From Nitrospirota bacterium (GTDB lineage Bacteria; Nitrospirota; Nitrospiria; SBBL01; JAADHI01): a DNA stretch of 64,000 bases. The stretch lies in NCBI GenBank assembly GCA_029261195.1, contig JAJDBU010000063.1, positions 1 through 64,000 on the forward strand. The letters are read 5' to 3'. The notes beneath the pieces were generated by a model. It worked only from the letters and a program-made list of their open reading frames with translations, made no database searches and was not told the origin of the DNA. Positions 9,684 to 63,989 of the stretch are shown one piece after another. Made by a program: the position numbers and the translations under genes. Positions within the stretch are counted from its first letter, which is position 1, and each line of letters begins with the position of its first letter.

Positions 9684-10343
9684 ATGGACAAGGAAACCCG
9701 GGAATTCTTAGAGAAAAAGTTCGATGCCATTGATGGAAAGTTCGATGCCATTGATGGAAAGTTCAATGCCATTGATGGAAAGTTCGATGCCATTGATGAG
9801 AAGTTCGATGCCATTGATGGAAAGTTCGAGGAAAGCAAACAATATGTAGATCAAAAATTCAGAGAGAACAAACAAGATTCGGATCAAAAGTTTGAAAATA
9901 ATAAACAATATGTAGATCGAAAATTCGAGGAGAACAAACAAGATTCAGATCAAAAGTTTGAAAATAATAGACAATATGTAGATCAAAAATTCGGTGAGAA
10001 TATAGAATATGTAAATCAAAAGTTTGAGGAGAACCAACAATATGTAGATCAAAAGTTCGGCGAGAATATAGAATATGTAGATCAAAAGTTTGAAGAAAAC
10101 AAGCGTTACTTCGGTGTTGTCTCGGAAGGCCTGAGAAATGAAATTCGGCAGGTGGCGGAAGGGCACCAAGTCTTGTTGGACGGTCATGCACGGATCATCG
10201 AACGCTTGGGACAGATGGAAAGAGAGTTAGGCTCAATGATCAAATTCTCCCACGCTGAGCTGGATCAAAGAATCCGGATACTCGAAGGTAAATTTCAGGG
10301 CTTAAATGAGCGGCTTGAGCGTTTGGAGACCCTGCGGAATTAG
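9684..10343 (+). CDS. coiled-coil protein with 7- and 11-residue repeats
   Basis: A soluble 219-residue protein starting at an ATG with GAGGAG ahead. After an 11-residue lead come five repeats of KF-AID- (residues 12-46, seven residues each). Nine repeats of eleven residues with the pattern KFxEN-QYVDQ follow (residues 47-145), then a non-repeated helical tail. Seven-residue repeats favour left-handed and eleven-residue repeats right-handed or straight coiled coils, so the rod should change pitch at residue 47. No signal peptide or membrane segment is present. Function is unknown; it resembles small tropomyosin-like or filament-forming bacterial coiled coils. It lies 29 bases after lolA. Confidence 0.7.
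   Translation: MDKETREFLEKKFDAIDGKFDAIDGKFNAIDGKFDAIDEKFDAIDGKFEESKQYVDQKFRENKQDSDQKFENNKQYVDRKFEENKQDSDQKFENNRQYVDQKFGENIEYVNQKFEENQQYVDQKFGENIEYVDQKFEENKRYFGVVSEGLRNEIRQVAEGHQVLLDGHARIIERLGQMERELGSMIKFSHAELDQRIRILEGKFQGLNERLERLETLRN
9717..9821 (+). repeat. five tandem 21-bp repeats
   Basis: Five in-frame copies of a 21-base unit (consensus AAGTTCGATGCCATTGATGG plus one base) with very few substitutions. The near identity suggests recent slippage expansion. Confidence 0.9.
9822..10118 (+). repeat. nine tandem 33-bp repeats
   Basis: Nine in-frame 33-base units encoding eleven residues each, beginning with the Lys-Phe pair. Alternating subtypes (QYVDQ, QDSDQ and EYVDQ endings) show a two-unit higher-order pattern from duplications of pairs of units. 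Confidence 0.85.
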
Positions 10344-28148: not shown

Positions 28149-29198
28149 TCACTCCGCAACAACCCTTGCTTTGATCAGTCCGAATCGGAGTTCATGTCTT
28201 GGCTGGATCTCAAGGATTTCGTTGATTTCTTCTCCATCGACAAAGGTTTTATTCTTGCTGCCGGAGTCTTTTAAATAAACCGATCTGTTTTTAAGGGTCA
28301 ATATGGCATGTTGCCTTGAGACCTCTTTCTGTTCAATGATGATATGAGCAGGGGCTTTACGACCGACAATATTTTCTCCCTCTTTTAATGGAAATTGTCG
28401 CTTGAGTGTCCCATCTATACAAATCTCAAGGAATAATCTCTGCCTTGAAGGTGGAGGTTTTTGAGGTAAATGGCTATCCGCTTTATTCAATTGGATCGTT
28501 TCAAGCCTGCTTTCCGGAAAGACGGTTTCGGCCTTGTCTTCTTTCACCTTTCCAAGTTCCGGAGGGAGTGCAAAAGCGCTTTCTCCAACTACAGTCTTCG
28601 AATGGTCCGAGATTGATGCTTCTTTCGTTTTTCCAAGTTCCGGAGGGAGGACGAAAGCGCTTTCTCCAACTACAGTCTCCGGCTGATCCGGTCTGGATTT
28701 TTCTTGTGTCTTTCCAAGTTCCGGAGGCAGCGTGAAAGGACCCTCTGCAACGACTGTTTTTGAGTGATCTCCGACCGCTTCTTTCGTTTTTCCAAGTTCG
28801 GGAGGGAGTACGAAAGCCCCTTGTTGAACAATTGTCTGCGGCTGTTGTTTTAATGTGGACTCTCTCTGTTTTAGATTAGGGTGCCGATTTTTACAGAGAT
28901 GGCTGTCTTGAAAAATGAAATCATACAATCCTGCAATTGAAATGACATTAAGGTGTCTTAGCTGTTCTTTTCCATCCACGCGGATATTGTCGAGATGCGT
29001 TCCATTTGCGCTGCCGAAGTCTTCCAGTATGAAACACTTTTGATTTTCATCGAAAAAAATCCTTAAGTGTTTTTTTGAAACTTCATTTTTGTCAAGGACG
29101 ACTTTATTTTGCCGTCCACGACCAATTGTTATTTCTTGATCAAAGGAAAGATCCACGCCTTTGATCGTTTTCTGCCTGGAATAGAGTTTTGCTCTCAC
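28149..29198 (-). CDS. twin-FHA adaptor with four threonine repeats
   Basis: FHA domains occupy residues 20-100 (GRG, SKKH, NGT all present) and 275-345 (GR, SRQH; the NG pair is replaced by NK). Between them lie four copies of a 20-residue repeat, TVVxE-AFVLPPELGKTKE, at residues 121-140, 147-166, 174-193 and 201-220, and a partial fifth near 224. Each repeat carries a threonine followed by two aliphatic residues, a plausible kinase site and FHA target. No signal or membrane segment is seen. A scaffold role, binding phosphorylated partners or itself, is inferred. Lies 22 bases ahead of the oxidoreductase gene. Confidence 0.85.
   Translation of the reverse strand: MRAKLYSRQKTIKGVDLSFDQEITIGRGRQNKVVLDKNEVSKKHLRIFFDENQKCFILEDFGSANGTHLDNIRVDGKEQLRHLNVISIAGLYDFIFQDSHLCKNRHPNLKQRESTLKQQPQTIVQQGAFVLPPELGKTKEAVGDHSKTVVAEGPFTLPPELGKTQEKSRPDQPETVVGESAFVLPPELGKTKEASISDHSKTVVGESAFALPPELGKVKEDKAETVFPESRLETIQLNKADSHLPQKPPPSRQRLFLEICIDGTLKRQFPLKEGENIVGRKAPAHIIIEQKEVSRQHAILTLKNRSVYLKDSGSKNKTFVDGEEINEILEIQPRHELRFGLIKARVVAE
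28539..28838 (-). repeat. four degenerate repeats of 78-81 bp in the FHA adaptor
   Basis: Tandem units of 26-27 codons encoding TVV...LPPELGK...E. The third and fourth copies are the most alike, pointing to recent duplication inside the gene. Confidence 0.85.
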
Positions 29199-42083: not shown

Positions 42084-43559
42084 GTGAACTCTTTAGGACG
42101 TTACGAAATTGTAGAAGAACTGGGTCGAGGTGCAATGGGCATTGTCTACCGGGGGAGCGATCCAAAAATAAACCGAACCGTTGCCTTGAAATGTCTTCAT
42201 GCCAACTTACTTGAGGGCGATACGGGTATCGGAGAGCGCTTTCATCAAGAAATGCGTGCACTCGGTCGTTTGGTTCATCCTAATATTGTGACGATATTTG
42301 ACGCTGGAGAAGCGGCCGATTCCGGACAGGCCTACATCGTCATGGAGTATGTGGAAGGGATTTCCCTGGCAGAGGTCATCAAAAAAAAACGAACACTTTC
42401 AATCGATCAGATTGTTCATATCGGCGTACAGATTTGTCGTGGACTCGATTTTGCTCACTCAAAAGGGGTGGTTCATCGGGATATTAAACCGGGGAATATC
42501 CTGCTTTCAGAAGATTTAATCAACGTCAAGATCGCAGATTTCGGCATTGCCAGATTAGACGATACCTCCTTAACACAAACTGATTGCCTCACAGGAACCC
42601 CACAGTATATGTCTCCGGAACAATGCCGAGGCGATAAGCTGGATGGTCGCTCCGATCTTTTTGCTCTCGGTGTTTTGCTTTATGAACTTCTGGCCCAGGA
42701 AAAGGCCTTTCAGGGCGATTCCTTCACAAGTATCCTGCTTCAGGTACTCAGTGATACGCCAAAACCCCCTTCCACCGTTTCATCTCATATTCCGGAATCT
42801 CTAAGTGAAGTGGTGATGCATGCTTTGGAAAAGAAACCGGAACAGCGATTTGCTTCAGGAAATGAAATGGCGGATGCCCTGCTGAATGGCATTAAAATGC
42901 CTGTACCCCTGGCTCCTCCGGAAGAAGATGAAAATGAAAATGAAGATGAAGACGACGCGACAAGAGTGCTTACACCTCTTGATGCTCGAGTTCTAGATAA
43001 GAGGAAGGTGTCAGACGAAAAGTCGAAATCACCCCAGACTCGCTATCTTGTAGTGATTTCCGTCTTATTGGTGATTGCAGCGGGGCTTTTCTTTGCCCTT
43101 CGGAAGTCTCCTCAAATGGCTGAACCTGAAAAGGTGGACATCGAAGCCGGGCGTAAAAAAATTGACGATATAAATACTAAAGCTGAGGCAGAGGCCAAGG
43201 CAAAAGAAGCAGCCAGAGTTAAAGCAGAAGCCAAGGCAAAATCAAAAGAAACAGCCAGAGCTAAGGCTGAAGCCAAAGTAAAAGAAACCGCCAGGGTTAA
43301 GGCTTTGGCTTTGGCTGAGGCTGATCGCTTAAGAATTAAAAAACTTTCTGCCGGCCTCTTGCATTTTAATACAAGCCCTAGCGGCGCCGATATTTTAATC
43401 AATGGTGAGCTGAAGGGTATCAGTCCAGTGTCGATAGAATTGGTGGGCGGAAAACCCTATGACCTAGTGATCAGGAAGGCGGGCTATCACGCTTTAGAGG
43501 CAACGATTGATGTCCCTGTAGGAGAAACACCCATGAACCTCACATTATTAGAGGAGTAA
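42084..43559 (+). CDS. membrane Ser/Thr protein kinase with PEGA domain
   Basis: A Hanks-type kinase of the PknB group. The glycine loop is LGRGAMGIVYRG, with Lys36, the catalytic His131-Arg-Asp133 loop, Asp152 of DFG and activation-loop threonines before GTPQYMSPEQ. An acidic juxtamembrane run ends in DDATRVLTP, a plausible autophosphorylation and FHA-binding site. One membrane helix lies near residues 318-340. Outside, an alanine/lysine/glutamate-rich helix with internal repeats is followed by a PEGA domain (FNTSPSGADILINGE). GTG start with AGGATG ahead. It is tightly linked to the CsgG-like genes, and it is the only kinase of this type in the window, about 13 kb from the FHA proteins. Confidence 0.9.
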   Translation: MNSLGRYEIVEELGRGAMGIVYRGSDPKINRTVALKCLHANLLEGDTGIGERFHQEMRALGRLVHPNIVTIFDAGEAADSGQAYIVMEYVEGISLAEVIKKKRTLSIDQIVHIGVQICRGLDFAHSKGVVHRDIKPGNILLSEDLINVKIADFGIARLDDTSLTQTDCLTGTPQYMSPEQCRGDKLDGRSDLFALGVLLYELLAQEKAFQGDSFTSILLQVLSDTPKPPSTVSSHIPESLSEVVMHALEKKPEQRFASGNEMADALLNGIKMPVPLAPPEEDENENEDEDDATRVLTPLDARVLDKRKVSDEKSKSPQTRYLVVISVLLVIAAGLFFALRKSPQMAEPEKVDIEAGRKKIDDINTKAEAEAKAKEAARVKAEAKAKSKETARAKAEAKVKETARVKALALAEADRLRIKKLSAGLLHFNTSPSGADILINGELKGISPVSIELVGGKPYDLVIRKAGYHALEATIDVPVGETPMNLTLLEE

Positions 43560-56501: not shown

Positions 56502-57296
56502 GTGAAAAACCTTCTATTGGCTACCTGGTTCTACAGGCAGTTCATTATCTCGTCTATCAAAAATGATTTTAAGGCCCGTTTTGCGCGGAGCAGGCTTGGT
56601 GGAGCCTGGATGGTATTACATCCTCTTTCCACGGTTTTAATGTATGCGCTGGTTCTTTCTGCTGTGCTTTCAGCTAAGATGCCCGGAATTAATAATCGTT
56701 TTTCTTACGCCATTTATCTTACAGCTGGGACCTTATCCTGGTCTCTCTTTTCAGAAGTCCTGTCACGTTGTCTGACCATCTTTATTGACAACGGCAACTT
56801 AATGAAAAAAATAGTCTTTCCGAGAACCTGCTTGCCATTAATCGTGACCGGCTCCGCATTGGTCAACAATGCTCTGTTGCTACTCTCTATTATTGTTATC
56901 TTTGCATTGCTTGGCCATTATCCCGGGGTGGATGCCCTTTGGCTGCCGCTATTATTTGTCATTACTATCGCTTTCGGATTGGGTATAGGTCTTATCTTGG
57001 GAGTGCTTAATGTGTTTGTTCGTGATATTGGGCAGGTTGTACCGATCATATTGCAGTTTTCCTTTTGGTTTACACCCATTGTTTATACGGTGGACATCAT
57101 CCCCGAGCACTATCGGTACTTATTGCAATACAACCCCATGTATCACATTGTAAGTGCTTACCATAATGTATTGGTGTATCTCCGGCCACCAGAATGGCAT
57201 GGATTGTTGGTTGTCACTGCAGTGAGTATCATTCTTCTCGCTTTTTCCTTGTTTTTGTTTCGCCGTGCCGGTGCTGAAATGGTGGATGTTTTATGA
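56502..57296 (+). CDS. wzm: O-polysaccharide ABC exporter permease
   Basis: A six-helix ABC-2 type permease of 264 residues. The start has the Wzm pattern DFKARFARSRLGGAWMVLHPL and KKIVFPR, with FSFWFTPIVY later. It moves lipid-linked O-polysaccharide across the inner membrane with the ATPase encoded next, with which it overlaps by ATGA. GTG start with a weak GAGAAG site. Confidence 0.9.
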   Translation: MKNLLLATWFYRQFIISSIKNDFKARFARSRLGGAWMVLHPLSTVLMYALVLSAVLSAKMPGINNRFSYAIYLTAGTLSWSLFSEVLSRCLTIFIDNGNLMKKIVFPRTCLPLIVTGSALVNNALLLLSIIVIFALLGHYPGVDALWLPLLFVITIAFGLGIGLILGVLNVFVRDIGQVVPIILQFSFWFTPIVYTVDIIPEHYRYLLQYNPMYHIVSAYHNVLVYLRPPEWHGLLVVTAVSIILLAFSLFLFRRAGAEMVDVL

Positions 57297-58597
57297 GTGT
57301 TGTCCTGGAAGTTGTCGACTTAGGAAAGGCCTATCGACATTACAGCTCGCAACTTTACCGCATACTTTCCTGGTTTGGGCTGAGGGTTAAGCCTATCGAA
57401 GAACACTGGGTGTTGCAGAATATCAGCTTTTCTCTACACTCAGGAGAAGCAATAGGAATCGTCGGGCAGAATGGTGCGGGAAAAAGTACGCTACTCAAAC
57501 TCATCACTGGTACTCAACGTGCCACAACTGGTCAGATACATACTAAGGGTCGTATCGCCGCTATCCTAGAATTGGGAATGGGTTTTAATCCCGAATTTAC
57601 CGGGCGTCAAAATGCATTTCATGGCTTAGGGCTAATGGGATTTAGCAATGAAGAAATAGAAAAGGTGCTTCCAGAACTGGAGACTTTTGCCGAAATCGGT
57701 GAATACTTCGACCAGCCCTTGCGTACATATTCCAGTGGCATGCAGATGCGTGTTGCATTTGCAGTGGTGACAGCGTTTCGCCCTGATATTTTAATCGTAG
57801 ACGAAGCTCTTTCTGTCGGTGATGCTTACTTTCAGGCAAAGTGCTATGAACTCATTATTTCTTACAAGAAACAGGGTACAACTTTGATTTTAGTTACGCA
57901 TTCTATTGGCGACATCGTTAAACACTGTACTCGTGCGTTGTATATTCGTGATGGCCGACTCACCGTGGATGGTAGTCCACGTGATGTTAGTAATTTTTAC
58001 CTGGATGACTTATTTGGTAATAGTAAAGAGAAGTCAGGAAAGCAGGGACTCTCGAAATCTGTAAGCGATGCCACCGAAGTTATGAATGGTACGGAGGATA
58101 AGTTTCATACTCGTCTCGGCTACCGCAAAGAAGAACACCGCTGGGGTAATGGTGGCGCACGTATTCTGGATTACCTGGTGCATGTCAATGGACAAGACTA
58201 TCCGGCTATCATTGAGAGCAATGCCAAAGCCGAATTCTCCTTCAAGGTGATATTTGATGCTGGGTTTGACGAGATCACTGCAGGCTTTCTTCTTAAAACA
58301 CACGATGGTGTATTTCTATATGGCACTAACTCGTTTCTTGTAACCGAAGGAAAACAAGCTATATCTGCGGACAAAGGGGAGGGCATTGTTTTTAAGTTTG
58401 AAGTGCCCATGACCCTAAATGCCGGTCACTATATGGTGTCTTTCGGCATTGCCACCGGTCCACAGGAAATGCTGAAACCACTAGACAGGCGCTATGATTC
58501 CATCCTTCTGACTGTCGTGCGGCCGATGGGGTTTTGGGGCTTGGTTGACCTTCGGGCAGAATTCGGCATGACCAGGGAAACTATCAATGTCTCGTAA
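57293..58597 (+). CDS. wzt: O-polysaccharide ABC exporter ATPase with carbohydrate-binding domain
   Basis: Walker A GQNGAGKST (58-66), signature YSSGMQMR (146-153) and Walker B ILIVDE (166-171) give a complete nucleotide-binding domain. The C-terminal 170 residues after about 265 form a Wzt-C beta-sandwich (AEFSFKVIFDA, GHYMVSFGIA). In E. coli O8/O9a this domain recognises the modified non-reducing end made by WbdD. Its presence matches the WbdD-like terminator fused in the next gene, which overlaps by 11 bases. Confidence 0.92.
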   Translation: MSVVLEVVDLGKAYRHYSSQLYRILSWFGLRVKPIEEHWVLQNISFSLHSGEAIGIVGQNGAGKSTLLKLITGTQRATTGQIHTKGRIAAILELGMGFNPEFTGRQNAFHGLGLMGFSNEEIEKVLPELETFAEIGEYFDQPLRTYSSGMQMRVAFAVVTAFRPDILIVDEALSVGDAYFQAKCYELIISYKKQGTTLILVTHSIGDIVKHCTRALYIRDGRLTVDGSPRDVSNFYLDDLFGNSKEKSGKQGLSKSVSDATEVMNGTEDKFHTRLGYRKEEHRWGNGGARILDYLVHVNGQDYPAIIESNAKAEFSFKVIFDAGFDEITAGFLLKTHDGVFLYGTNSFLVTEGKQAISADKGEGIVFKFEVPMTLNAGHYMVSFGIATGPQEMLKPLDRRYDSILLTVVRPMGFWGLVDLRAEFGMTRETINVS

Positions 58598-61500
58598 AGT
58601 TACCAAGAGCAACCTTCAATGCCTGGTTGCGGCGCTACCAGAAGTCTATCAGCCTATTTACACCCATCCGGAACTTTCCCGTAGTGTATCGCGTGCCTGC
58701 CGGGATAGGCTTGAGTATATAGTCCAGGTGTACGAATCGCTTGTTGCCCAATTGCAGCGCCCCTTGCGCGTACTTGATCTGGGATCTGCGCAAGGCTTCT
58801 TCAGCTTTAGTCTGGCTGAGCTTGGTGCCAGCGTACATGGTGTGGATTATCTTGATGATAATGTAGCTGTTTGCAAGGAACTTGCAGATGAGCATAAAAA
58901 CCTGAATGTCAGCTTTCAAGTTGGACGCATTGAGGATGTATTACAACAGCTTGAGAGGGGGCAGTATGACCTAGTACTTGGCCTGAGCGTGTTCCACCAT
59001 ATTGTGCAGGAAAAAAGTGCGGCAGCGGTTGGTCAAATGTTGAGCGAGTTAGCTGGCAACGTGGAGGTAGGCATTTTCGAATTCGCCCAGGCCTCAGAAC
59101 CTTTGTACTGGGCGGAGGCACAACCAGAACAACCCCGGCAATTACTTAATGGTTTTGCCTTTGTGCATGAATTGTCACGGCACGAAACACACCTGTCGTC
59201 CATCGCACGGCCTTTGTACTTTTCCAGCAATCACTACTGGTACTTGAACGCCCGAGGGGGCGTTTTTGATTCAACACAAACATATTCAAACGCACTTGCA
59301 CAGGGTGTTCATCAAGGCACAAGGCAGTATTACTTCGGCAATGGGTTACTTGTAAAGCAATATCGACTGGATAACGCGGAATGTTTAGAGGGTAATCTTG
59401 AGGAGTACCACAACGAAGCCACCTTCTTGACTGATCCGCCATCGGGATTCAATGTCCCAGAGCTTGTGTTACACGGCCAGCATGAAAGTGAAGCGTGGAT
59501 AGTGCGGGCACTACTACCCGGTGAACTGTTGCTTGATGTCATATGCCATAAAAAAAAATATAACCCCACTCAGGTACTGGGCGATATCCTGACACAACTG
59601 GCTGTACTCGAAGCCGATGGATTGTATCACAACGATGTGCGCGTCTGGAACGTGCTAATAAATGCTGATGGCGCTGCAACGCTTTTTGACTATGGGGCAA
59701 TATCTGCAAGAGCCAATGACTGTGTATGGCCGAATGATATCTTTCTTTCATTTTTGATTTTTGTGCATGAAGTGACAACAGGTAATGTCGGTTCGCCAGT
59801 GCCGTTACGTGCTACCCGAATAAGTCCTTTTGGATTGACTGAGCCATATCTGAAATGGACTATGGCTTTCTGGTCGCGGCCTGTCGGCGAATGGAACTTC
59901 AGTCTTCTACACGAATTATTTATGCAAAGGGATACACTCTCCGATAGCAATACGTACAGCGATACATCGACCCAGCTTTGGGTACAAACTATGGAAGAGG
60001 CTCTTGATGGCGAAATTTCAAAAACACAGCATCTGGAGTCGCAACTCGGCAGAAGGAGCGAACAGCTGGCAGATCTGGAGTCGCAACTCGGCAGAAGGAG
60101 CGAACAGCTGGCAGATAGTGAAGCCGCACTTGGGACGGTCAGTCTTGAGTTGAAATCTGTTTACAATAGCAAATCTTGGTACCTTACCAAACCGATACGA
60201 GAATTGAAGTCGTTCTGCAAGCGTCTGTTTGCTCTGAGAAACCGAACCATGCTATGGCTCGCCCATCTGTCCAAACGCTCAGTCCTCTGGGTGCTACTCA
60301 AGGCCATGGCCTATATTACTAAACGTTCTGGGCTGCAAATACGGGCCAAGACTTGGCTGCTGAAATATCCGAGACTTAAAACAAAATTACGACGGCTATT
60401 GGAGCAGGGTCTGACTACTAAACGACCGAGTAAAACTTCTTATCCTGATCATCACGAAACTAAACTATTTGACCGCTTCAAGCAAAGTATTCACTGCCAA
60501 AATACTGATGCTTCTTTTGTCTTGCCGCTTCCATCGGGTGCACGAAATATTTATATCTACGTTGATCATACTGTTCTCTGTTCAACGAATACGGGAATAC
60601 AGCGTGTTACTCGTGGCGTTGCAGCGAGTCTTCGATCGCTTGGAGAGAATGTTCATTATGTGAAATGGGATGCCGTCGAAGGTCAATGTGTATTGATCAA
60701 TATAGAGGAACGTCGGTTCCTTGCGGAATGGAATGGTCCTTCTGTCCACGAGACCGAGCTTAAATACTATCCATCTAGCGATGGAGAACAGATTTCAGTT
60801 GCACCACATGTCCTAGGCGAAAACAATTGGTTGATTGTCCCTGAAGTTACCCATATTACCTACCACGAGCACCCCGTTACATTGAATCTGTTGCAGTGGT
60901 CTCGCAGTGCTGGGCTTAAAACAGGATTTATCTTTTACGATTCCATCCCGTTAAGACGCGATGAGTTGCACGAAATGTCTTCTAGACACGCAAAGTACAT
61001 GCGACATCTCTTGCTGGCAGACGTTGTCTGGCCCATATCGCAATGGTCAGCTGACGATCTCATTGCATACTGGGTGAGGAATGAGTGTGCAAGCATGAAA
61101 ACGATGCCTGAAATAGAGGTGCTTCATTTGTCCGGAGAGTCATTACTTTGTGAGCGAATCCGAGAGCCGAAAGACGGGGAAAAATTGATTCTTTCCGTCG
61201 GTTCCATTGAGCCGAGAAAAAATCAGGTTATGCTTATCAGGGCTTTTGAAGCCTATCGTAAGCTTCACCCAGACAGTGAATGGCGTTTGACTCTAGTCGG
61301 GAATATCCATCCCTTGGTCGCAGAGGAAGTTACCCGCGCTCAAGGTGCAGATAAGGCAATCTTGCATGTTGGGAATGTTTCCAACCAGAAGCTTGATTCG
61401 CTATATCGTTCGTGTGCGTTTACCGTTTTTCCATCAGTTGAAGAAGGCTTTGGTCTGCCGATCCTCGAGAGTTTATGGTACGCAAAGCCATGCATCTGCG

Positions 61501-63989
61501 CCAACTTTGGGTCTATGGCAGAAGTTGCCGGAGACAGAGGTTGTTATACGGTGGATACGAGGGATCAAGCAATACTTGAAGAAGCCGTCATACGCCTAAT
61601 TGACGATGAGGCGTTTCGTCATACACTAGCGGTTCAGGCTGCAGCACGTCCTATGAGTTCATGGATTGATTATGGTGCTGCAATCCAGGCACGAGTGGAA
61701 AAAGAGGGTCACCCCGAAGCTTGTCTTGGTCGAGTTTATTACTGGATAGATTCGACTATTCAATTCCCAAAAAACACAGGCATTCAACGAGTAGCGCGTC
61801 AACTTGCATGTGAATTAATAGAGATGGGGGTATCTCTTATCCCAGTTAAGTGGGATAAATCGCAGTCGGGATTGTGCTCGGTTACCTGTGATGAGCTTAC
61901 GCATTTTTCAAAATGGAATGGACCAAATGAAGAATCATGGCATGATTGGAGCGCACCGGATACCAAGAGGAAACTTGATTGGTTTATTCTGCCGGATTTG
62001 CCACTTAACCACTCCACTGCAGAGCAGGTGCAGTTGCTGGAATATTTGCACAGGGTTGGCTTGCATTCTGCGGCTATTTTTTACGACACGATTCCCTGGA
62101 AGATGAGAGACATTTACCCTCCACACTTTTCTCAGGCCCATCGCGAATATATGATCGGTTTGGCAGAATATGATCTTATTTTCCCTATTTCCTTTTTTAG
62201 TCGAGAAGATTTGATTGATTTTCTAGGGGGATTAGTACTTTCTTGCCCCCAAGGGATAGATAAAAGGATAAAATCCGTAGTCTTACCTGGGGAGTTTCCT
62301 GAGAGTCCTCGAGTTACTACTATCGTGCCGAGTGCGGATGGAGTCATTACGGTCTTATGTGTGGGCACGGTTGAACCACGTAAGAACCATGAGACTCTAC
62401 TCCAAGCTTTTGAACTTGCAACCCAACACTGTGGTGAGCCATTACGTCTCGTTATCGCGGGTGGCAAACATAGTATTGAACCTGAGTTGGGAAAGCGCGT
62501 GAGAGCTTTTATCGGAAATTCTCCGAACGTGACCTGGGAGGAAGACGTTGATGACAACCGGTTACGGGAACTACAACTCGCTTGTGATTTTACGGTATAC
62601 CCTTCCATAGAGGAGGGGTTTGGCTTGCCAATCCTGGAAAGCCTGTGGTATGCCAAACCCAGCATCTGCGCGAATTTTGGTGCCATGCGGGAAGCAGCTG
62701 AAGGAGGCGGATGCCTCATGGTTGATGTGAGCAGCGTTGAAACATTAGCTGGAGCCATCCAGCGCATGGTTGAAGATATATCGTTGCGAGAGGCTTTAAC
62801 AATTGAAGCGGTGGAGCGTCCTTTCAAGACTTGGAATGACTATGCTGTGGAAGTGGCTACACGGCTAGCGGAAGCGACTCCCGTCCAATTTTCTGAATTA
62901 AAGCTTACTCAAAGTGAGATCGAGTCGCGTGCACAGTCGATGAATCTTGTACCTCGCCCCAAGCTCTCAATCTGTATCAGCACCTACAACCGTGCTGATT
63001 GGCTGGCGACTAGTTTAAAGAACTGGTCGAGCCTATATCCTGAGCCTCTTCCAGGTGTGGAGTTTCTAGTGTGCGATAACGCGTCTACAGACCACACTCC
63101 GGAAATTGTCAAGCCATATTTGGAACGGATGGATTTCTCCTACCACCGTAATGTACATAATGTCGGAATGCTCGGTAACTTGCGGGAAACCACACATCGC
63201 ACTCGCGGTGAATATGTGTGGATTCTTGGTGATGATGACCTGCTGATGCCAAATGCCATCGAACGAGTGATGGGTATTCTCCAGTCGAATTTGGGTGTGG
63301 CGCTGGTCTATTTGAATTATGCTTTTACTCGAGTAGAAGATGCGCGTACTCTTACCGATTTTGATGCTTTTTTCCGTGCGAGTACCCCCATCGTGCCTGC
63401 CGAACCAGATCTAGAAGGCCCGATCTATACGATCTGTGCACGCAACGAGAATTTCTTTACTGCGATCTATGCGCTGGTTTTTAGACGTGATCACGCAATA
63501 AAGGCTTACTCACAAGATACCAGCGGCCGTCCCTTCTCGACCATGCTTACCTGCATCCCTACCACCTATTATGTGCTCAATTATATGATGTATGAGCCTG
63601 GTTTTTGGATTGGTGAACCTATGGTGGTGGTTAATATGAATGTATCCTGGCTCAGATACGCGCCACTTTGGATTTTAGAACGAATTCCAGAAGTATACGA
63701 CTTTGCTGAAAAACAAGGCGTCCCCAAGGATCAGATGGATCGATGGAGGAGCCACACTCTTCCAGGGGTTGTAAATTATTTCAAGATTATTTTTGAAGAC
63801 GACCCTTTGAATAATGCCGAATATTTTAGGCCGGATAGAGTTATACGCCGATTTAAGCATCTGCCCGAGTTTGCAGCAGTATCAAAGGAACTCCGTGATA
63901 TCTACTCATACGCTCATGCCAAAGGACATCCGGCGGCAACTAAACCAGTTTCAGTTGTTTTTCCGGAAAACCAAGAAGGCCACTTCTAA
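58587..63989 (+). CDS. WbdD-like methyltransferase-kinase fused to GT4-GT4-GT2
   Basis: One 1800-residue chain. Residues 20-230 are a SAM methyltransferase (motif I VLDLGSAQG, 62-70). About 245-440 is a small-molecule kinase with catalytic H348-N-D350, N355 and metal-binding D368 (FDYG). Residues 465-530 are a coiled coil with a perfect 14-residue duplication. About 650-1040 is a GT4 domain (EX7E at E953/E961) and about 1050-1440 a second, related GT4 (E1343/E1351). Residues 1457-1700 are a GT2 transferase (STYNRADW, DDD1549-1551). In E. coli O8/O9a the terminator WbdD caps the chain and is a separate protein from the polymerase WbdA. Here they appear joined. Located with Wzm/Wzt, it probably builds, measures and caps the exported polymer. 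Confidence 0.88.
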   Translation: MSRKVTKSNLQCLVAALPEVYQPIYTHPELSRSVSRACRDRLEYIVQVYESLVAQLQRPLRVLDLGSAQGFFSFSLAELGASVHGVDYLDDNVAVCKELADEHKNLNVSFQVGRIEDVLQQLERGQYDLVLGLSVFHHIVQEKSAAAVGQMLSELAGNVEVGIFEFAQASEPLYWAEAQPEQPRQLLNGFAFVHELSRHETHLSSIARPLYFSSNHYWYLNARGGVFDSTQTYSNALAQGVHQGTRQYYFGNGLLVKQYRLDNAECLEGNLEEYHNEATFLTDPPSGFNVPELVLHGQHESEAWIVRALLPGELLLDVICHKKKYNPTQVLGDILTQLAVLEADGLYHNDVRVWNVLINADGAATLFDYGAISARANDCVWPNDIFLSFLIFVHEVTTGNVGSPVPLRATRISPFGLTEPYLKWTMAFWSRPVGEWNFSLLHELFMQRDTLSDSNTYSDTSTQLWVQTMEEALDGEISKTQHLESQLGRRSEQLADLESQLGRRSEQLADSEAALGTVSLELKSVYNSKSWYLTKPIRELKSFCKRLFALRNRTMLWLAHLSKRSVLWVLLKAMAYITKRSGLQIRAKTWLLKYPRLKTKLRRLLEQGLTTKRPSKTSYPDHHETKLFDRFKQSIHCQNTDASFVLPLPSGARNIYIYVDHTVLCSTNTGIQRVTRGVAASLRSLGENVHYVKWDAVEGQCVLINIEERRFLAEWNGPSVHETELKYYPSSDGEQISVAPHVLGENNWLIVPEVTHITYHEHPVTLNLLQWSRSAGLKTGFIFYDSIPLRRDELHEMSSRHAKYMRHLLLADVVWPISQWSADDLIAYWVRNECASMKTMPEIEVLHLSGESLLCERIREPKDGEKLILSVGSIEPRKNQVMLIRAFEAYRKLHPDSEWRLTLVGNIHPLVAEEVTRAQGADKAILHVGNVSNQKLDSLYRSCAFTVFPSVEEGFGLPILESLWYAKPCICANFGSMAEVAGDRGCYTVDTRDQAILEEAVIRLIDDEAFRHTLAVQAAARPMSSWIDYGAAIQARVEKEGHPEACLGRVYYWIDSTIQFPKNTGIQRVARQLACELIEMGVSLIPVKWDKSQSGLCSVTCDELTHFSKWNGPNEESWHDWSAPDTKRKLDWFILPDLPLNHSTAEQVQLLEYLHRVGLHSAAIFYDTIPWKMRDIYPPHFSQAHREYMIGLAEYDLIFPISFFSREDLIDFLGGLVLSCPQGIDKRIKSVVLPGEFPESPRVTTIVPSADGVITVLCVGTVEPRKNHETLLQAFELATQHCGEPLRLVIAGGKHSIEPELGKRVRAFIGNSPNVTWEEDVDDNRLRELQLACDFTVYPSIEEGFGLPILESLWYAKPSICANFGAMREAAEGGGCLMVDVSSVETLAGAIQRMVEDISLREALTIEAVERPFKTWNDYAVEVATRLAEATPVQFSELKLTQSEIESRAQSMNLVPRPKLSICISTYNRADWLATSLKNWSSLYPEPLPGVEFLVCDNASTDHTPEIVKPYLERMDFSYHRNVHNVGMLGNLRETTHRTRGEYVWILGDDDLLMPNAIERVMGILQSNLGVALVYLNYAFTRVEDARTLTDFDAFFRASTPIVPAEPDLEGPIYTICARNENFFTAIYALVFRRDHAIKAYSQDTSGRPFSTMLTCIPTTYYVLNYMMYEPGFWIGEPMVVVNMNVSWLRYAPLWILERIPEVYDFAEKQGVPKDQMDRWRSHTLPGVVNYFKIIFEDDPLNNAEYFRPDRVIRRFKHLPEFAAVSKELRDIYSYAHAKGHPAATKPVSVVFPENQEGHF
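60033..60116 (+). repeat. perfect 42-bp tandem duplication in the coiled coil
   Basis: Two identical in-frame copies of 42 bases (60033-60074 and 60075-60116), each coding LESQLGRRSEQLAD (residues 483-510). Fourteen residues equal two heptads, so the coiled-coil register is kept. Confidence 0.95.

Follow-up and report, generated by a model that had tools for sequence, protein, structure and literature searches.

An exact in-frame tandem repeat in the predicted coiled-coil ruler of a WbdD-type chain terminator from a Nitrospirota bacterium

WbdD of Escherichia coli O9/O9a and Klebsiella pneumoniae O3 is a bifunctional chain terminator with a kinase, a methyltransferase, and a coiled coil. For the E. 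coli enzyme, coil length is described as setting chain length (PMC5082667, PMC11231755), with coil insertions raising and truncations lowering the modal chain length (PMC5082667). As described in PMC3482155, H132, H133, and R203 are needed for phosphate methylation, R36 and D82 for SAM binding, and Y230 for kinase activity in vitro, while the helix formed by residues 459–473 is responsible for trimerisation, and without it kinase activity drops severely.

Two further terminators from K. pneumoniae, both described in PMC11231755, resemble the protein reported here in being joined to glycosyltransferases. WbbB (serotype O12) carries a distal terminator, a coil, and C-terminal glycosyltransferases in one polypeptide, but its terminator is a glycosyltransferase module rather than a WbdD-type kinase–methyltransferase. 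ORF6 (serotype O7) combines a methyltransferase–kinase, a coiled coil, and two C-terminal glycosyltransferase modules in one chain; its kinase is said to be quite unlike that of WbdD, and its glycosyltransferases are GT2, whereas the protein studied here has a WbdD-like kinase and a GT4-GT4 polymerase plus GT2.

A WbdD-type terminator fused to a polymerase

The window, the whole 64,000-nucleotide stretch of Nitrospirota DNA that was analysed, encodes this protein together with an ABC transporter. The relevant features, all on the forward strand, are the following:

56502..57296, +, Wzm, ABC-2 permease (PF01061, E=5e-24)
57293..58597, +, Wzt, ABC ATPase with a C-terminal glycan-binding domain (Wzt_C; PF14524, E=8e-25)
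58587..63989, +, open reading frame of 1800 aa: WbdD-type terminator, coiled coil, WbdA-like GT4-GT4 polymerase, and GT2 in a single polypeptide
58587..59216, +, methyltransferase domain, residues 1-210 (borders transferred from E. coli WbdD)
59217..59963, +, kinase domain, residues 211-459 (borders transferred from E. coli WbdD)
59979..60179, +, predicted ruler, W465 to W531 of the S-x-S-W-x-x-T landmark; 66 residues, heptad-like, 98 Å if a straight single helix
60189..60506, +, region aligned with the C-terminal membrane- and polymerase-recruiting part of WbdD, at low identity (26/105 to E. coli)
61167..61640, +, glycosyltransferase family 4 domain, residues 861-1018
62313..62660, +, second GT4-type domain, residues 1243-1358
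62967..63302, +, GT2 domain, residues 1461-1572

Both the domain order and the wzm-wzt-wbdD gene order are those of the E. coli O9/O9a and K. pneumoniae O3 systems, with wzm and wzt upstream of the WbdD-type gene and a GDP-mannose 4,6-dehydratase gene (gmd, E=1.6e-144) downstream. Residues 9-481 align to the solved E. coli WbdD structures 4uw0 (E=6.7e-115) and 4azs (E=5e-114), and the aligned residues identical to the E. coli enzyme number 98 of 210 in the methyltransferase and 89 of 243 in the kinase. The methyltransferase residues R36, D82, H132, H133, and R203 are identical in the window protein and in its homologues from Delftia, genome G023, and K. pneumoniae; in the alignment, the window protein also conserves the kinase residues E274, D351, and W355, and its coiled coil ends in S-x-S-W as in WbdD. 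All NCBIfam matches of the 1,800-aa protein fall below the curated cut-off. The alignments identify the protein as a genuine WbdD relative, a bifunctional chain terminator of the WbdD type whose activity is predicted.

Y230 is not kept. In the poorly aligned loop that holds this position (59240-59310, residues ~220-240), the window protein has an asparagine, with a tyrosine two residues away, and the Delftia and G023 homologues have a histidine. As the nearest homologues also lack it, Y230 is an active-site detail of the O9a enzyme and not a family-defining residue; its replacement may reflect a different acceptor sugar.

WbdD systems have a separate wbdA, whereas the window protein carries a WbdA-like polymerase and a GT2 domain fused at its C terminus. 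Beyond the coil, the protein shares 25% identity with the WbdA encoded on an O9-type E. coli plasmid (E=3e-28). In Delftia (L002) and G023 (L049), the WbdD homologue occupies its own open reading frame and is followed by a separate large multi-glycosyltransferase frame; the window therefore shows the fused form. From this gene content, the polymer can be inferred as an ABC-transporter-exported glycan, and not specifically as LPS or O antigen.

The gene is rare in its lineage. At E<=1e-40, WbdD is found in two of 269 genomes of the class, namely the window genome and one with a 45% homologue, and the same two are recovered from 395 genomes sampled from the phylum. The congener genome searched has no WbdD-type gene, and no second carrier of the window's gene from its own species was found in the class, the phylum sample, or the congener. 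Delftia is the sole named chromosomal homologue found. This distribution makes horizontal gain of the gene likely. A search of phages and viral contigs for WbdD gave no match.

The 42-bp array in the predicted ruler

The repeat is placed after the kinase and ahead of the S-x-S-W landmark at which the coiled coil ends:

60031..60116, +, exact tandem array, period 42 bp, two copies (TRF and lag-identity scan)
60033..60074 and 60075..60116, +, in-frame units, residues 483-496 and 497-510, each encoding LESQLGRRSEQLAD
60117..60158, +, possible decayed third unit SEAALGTVSLELKS (weak)

A preliminary description of this DNA had reported an exact 42-bp duplication encoding two heptads in frame, placed it in the coiled-coil length ruler of a WbdD-like protein, and noted that coil length determines polysaccharide length in WbdD. 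The duplication is real. Lag-42 identity is unbroken over 44 bases (60031-60074), which gives the array extent of 60031-60116, and TRF reports a period of 42, 2.0 copies, and 100% matches. Positions 60033-60116 comprise exactly two 14-codon units, identical at every base, so that residues 483-510 hold LESQLGRRSEQLAD twice with the heptad register kept. Across lags 10-300, the longest exact runs in 20 mononucleotide shuffles of the window reach 10-15 bases, against the 44 observed. When an exact run of at least its own period and at least 24 bases is required over the same lags, two arrays remain in the window, the 42-bp array and a 21-bp array at 9716. The two units agree at all 14 third codon positions, and because no synonymous position differs between them, the duplication is either recent or homogenised. 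Just 2 bp of end homology are left at the unit.

SEAALGTVSLELKS, directly after the array, matches the unit at 5 of 14 residues. Its similarity ranks third among 1,786 protein positions outside both copies, ties apart, and 131 of 20,000 shuffles reach its score, which is suggestive of an older, decayed third unit.

Repeats of other kinds occur elsewhere in the window (TRF). At 9716-10096, the 21-bp array (5.4 copies, 93%) is followed by 33/66-bp repeats and is repetitive-protein-like; an 81-bp tandem repeat lies at 28538-28817 (3.5 copies, 71% matches), and an imperfect 42-bp repeat of ~3 copies at 43188-43300.

The ruler was measured from the conserved tryptophan after the kinase to the S-x-S-W-x-x-T motif, a measure that leaves out the divergent alleles of K. 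pneumoniae OW969824 and E. coli ET650, where the first tryptophan landmark was not found. The 66 residues of the window compare with 73 in G023, 130 in E. coli, and 161 in Delftia, so the window ruler is about half as long as that of E. coli WbdD. As a straight helix, the E. coli ruler would span 193 Å, comparable to the published coil of ~200 Å (PMC5082667). Without the duplication, the window ruler would have 52 residues; the 14 residues therefore add 27%, or ~21 Å. By a home-made heptad score, the three top 28-residue windows in the 1,800-aa protein start at residues 481-483, and none of 5,000 shuffles matches the score of the ruler segment. An AlphaFold2 model of residues 1-640, built with one homologue in the alignment, has a mean pLDDT of 36 and is unusable for judging helix continuity. 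The location of the array between kinase and S-x-S-W, together with the heptad-like pattern on the home-made score, supports its earlier placement within the predicted coil of a WbdD relative, and the literature bears out the link between coil length and chain length for the E. coli enzyme (PMC5082667, PMC11231755).

Copy number in plasmid-borne and chromosomal wbdD

The preliminary description had also proposed that slippage could change the copy number of the repeat and so vary polymer length between strains. This mechanism is partly supported. Copy-number change does occur in O9-type relatives on plasmids, which carry one, two, or three copies of a ruler repeat, but ruler length looks fixed on E. 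coli chromosomes among the matches listed.

WbdD was found on nine plasmid records (tblastn). Eight enterobacterial records carry a gene at least 99.3% identical to that of E. coli (nucleotide search), and the remaining one, OW969824, holds a divergent 693-aa allele with no array. The wbdD frame is intact in six of the eight and frameshifted in two, which were excluded from the intact-frame count:

MF062700 and CP056131: one 153-bp unit, 708 aa
CP060739: two 153-bp units, 759 aa
CP056437, AP023451, and CP022158: three 153-bp units, 810 aa
CP138909 (Apirhabdus): two units, frameshifted
CP049262 (Cronobacter sakazakii, pCsaCS09b, L041:3501-5944): frameshifted, with a different event, a 318-bp duplication

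The Cronobacter duplication is in tandem, contains 170 bp of uninterrupted identity, has lost a short internal segment, and has an origin separate from the 153-bp series; the frameshifts in this gene represent either gene damage or sequencing error.

In the multi-copy plasmid alleles, the 153-bp units are identical and lie at the same ruler site. Each unit is 51 codons long and covers residues ~455-505, taking in the trimer helix 459-473. These alleles share with the window gene an exact tandem duplication that keeps the frame and sits where the ruler begins, immediately behind the kinase. The two differ in that the plasmid unit of 51 residues is not a multiple of seven and is associated with a 10-bp direct repeat, whereas the window unit has 14 residues and 2 bp of end homology. 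In the one-copy plasmid allele, a perfect 10-bp repeat flanks the 153 bp on either side; in the nearest E. coli chromosomal allele 9 of the 10 bases match, and two other chromosomal alleles lack the repeat. These direct repeats suggest a route for the first plasmid duplication, which probably arose between them. In the K. pneumoniae (L033), Delftia (L002), and G023 (L004) homologues, TRF detected just short arrays with scores <50.

Outside the array, 7,984 bp of cluster sequence show 0-1 substitutions between plasmids that differ in copy number. Relative to MF062700, an identical set of seven substitutions occurs in CP060739 (two units) and AP023451 (three), and apart from a 2-bp deletion in the AP023451 wzt these two do not differ there. 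One substitution, present in MF062700 alone, separates that one-unit plasmid from CP056437 and CP022158 (three units each). From this substitution pattern, copy number has changed at least two times, and faster than point substitution. Assembly error was considered as a source of the copy differences and rejected, as the three-copy records differ in country and host and one of them, CP022158, was assembled from PacBio reads (PMC5571413). Ruler repeats expand and contract in frame in nature on O9-type wbdD plasmids. On the Enterobacter roggenkampii plasmid pN260-4, the three-unit wbdD lies beside a wzt with a 2-bp deletion; unless this is a sequencing error, glycan export may have been lost there.

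On E. coli chromosomes, the picture is one of constancy. At least 80% of the wbdD gene is matched in 210 E. coli records. Among the matches listed, a 2127-bp span occurs in 60 of 60, 60 of 60, and 59 of 60 rows of three overlapping listings, and the lone length exception among the chromosomal matches listed is an annotated frameshift. The full-cover matches listed number 48, of which 47 are chromosomal and one is plasmid-borne. A query for the junction of the 153-bp duplication is matched in one piece over its whole length only by ABWA45, where it lies on a plasmid, among the best 45 of 211 matching E. coli genomes. In the same best 45, the match is split into two pieces, covering 163 bp in 32 genomes and 153 bp in three, a pattern that fits one copy, and the remaining junction matches listed cover about half of the query. 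Chromosomal wbdD alleles differ by ~8-10%, and the constancy of ruler length despite this divergence suggests that length matters. Because the E. coli chromosomes are constant among the matches listed, variability is so far a trait of one mobile allele family, not of WbdD generally.

Partial genes also occur in this species: of the 263 E. coli genomes that match an O9-type wbdD, 52 carry less than 80% of the gene, and in E. coli GZ04-0086 (L050:4295-5266) an IS1 stands in place of the front of wbdD while wbdA is intact.

A proposed longer ruler and its alternatives

The best explanation for the window repeat, and one we consider reasonably probable, is a recent in-frame tandem duplication that lengthens the coiled-coil ruler of a WbdD-type terminator by two heptads. 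The coil helix would keep the kinase–methyltransferase apart from the membrane-bound polymerase, such that a chain would be capped only on reaching the cap site and would then be exported via recognition by Wzt_C. The additional 14 residues would shift the cap site ~21 Å outward as the ruler grows from 52 to 66 residues (+27%), and with the cap site further out, the capped polymer should be longer. By analogy with engineered WbdD, a longer coil would give a longer capped polymer in both the window and the plasmid repeat alleles. Slippage or recombination could plausibly add or remove further units.

A doubtful but weightier alternative is that the duplication is recent and neutral, caught before decay or loss in a coiled coil that tolerates whole heptads, with chain length set elsewhere, by stoichiometry or kinase rate, and insensitive to 14 residues. 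The 42-bp repeat is known from a single genome and bears no sign of selection, and its weakly similar third unit fits repeated gain and decay. Polymerase-site occupancy is also described as setting the size distribution (PMC11231755), and lower kinase activity as giving longer chains (PMC3482155). Engineered coil insertions, however, alter chain length (PMC5082667), and the chromosomal ruler of E. coli keeps its length among the matches listed even in alleles ~8-10% apart; both argue against insensitivity to coil length.

The coil of the fused protein could instead serve mainly in oligomer formation and kinase folding, having no ruler role because polymerase and terminator already share one chain. 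This appears improbable. The window coil is indeed very short (66 residues against 130 in E. coli), and the trimerising function of helix 459-473, with its effect on kinase activity (PMC3482155), would fit such a role. The 42-bp repeat, however, lies past the residues aligned with the trimer helix, and WbbB of K. pneumoniae O12 is also a single chain, yet its coil is termed a ruler (PMC11231755).

A wrong unit number in the assembly is very improbable: the genome is a 77-contig draft with copy number read from the assembly alone, and collapse of a higher copy number is harder to exclude, but the usual short reads are longer than the 86-bp array. Long-read data also back the analogous, longer array in CP022158 (PMC5571413).

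Beyond the favoured reading of a lengthened window ruler, a wider proposal can be put forward tentatively, as possible rather than probable: WbdD-type rulers may be naturally length-variable, gaining and losing units faster than point mutation and so allowing graded, reversible change in polymer length, unlike on/off phase variation. The cases that would belong to it, at the same tentative level, are the plasmid proteins of 708, 759, and 810 aa, the 318-bp duplication of Cronobacter, and the 42-bp repeat of the window in a distant class. No report of natural copy-number variation in the WbdD ruler was found in the open-access literature searched.

The role of coil length as a ruler for O-polysaccharide has so far rested on engineered WbdD variants. 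Alleles that vary naturally in unit number within near-identical clusters would allow the ruler model to be tested without design, and they would also show whether bacteria alter polymer length through repeat number. From a distant lineage, the window contributes a duplication of independent origin, as well as a terminator–polymerase fusion that brings the ruler and both kinds of active site together in a single chain.
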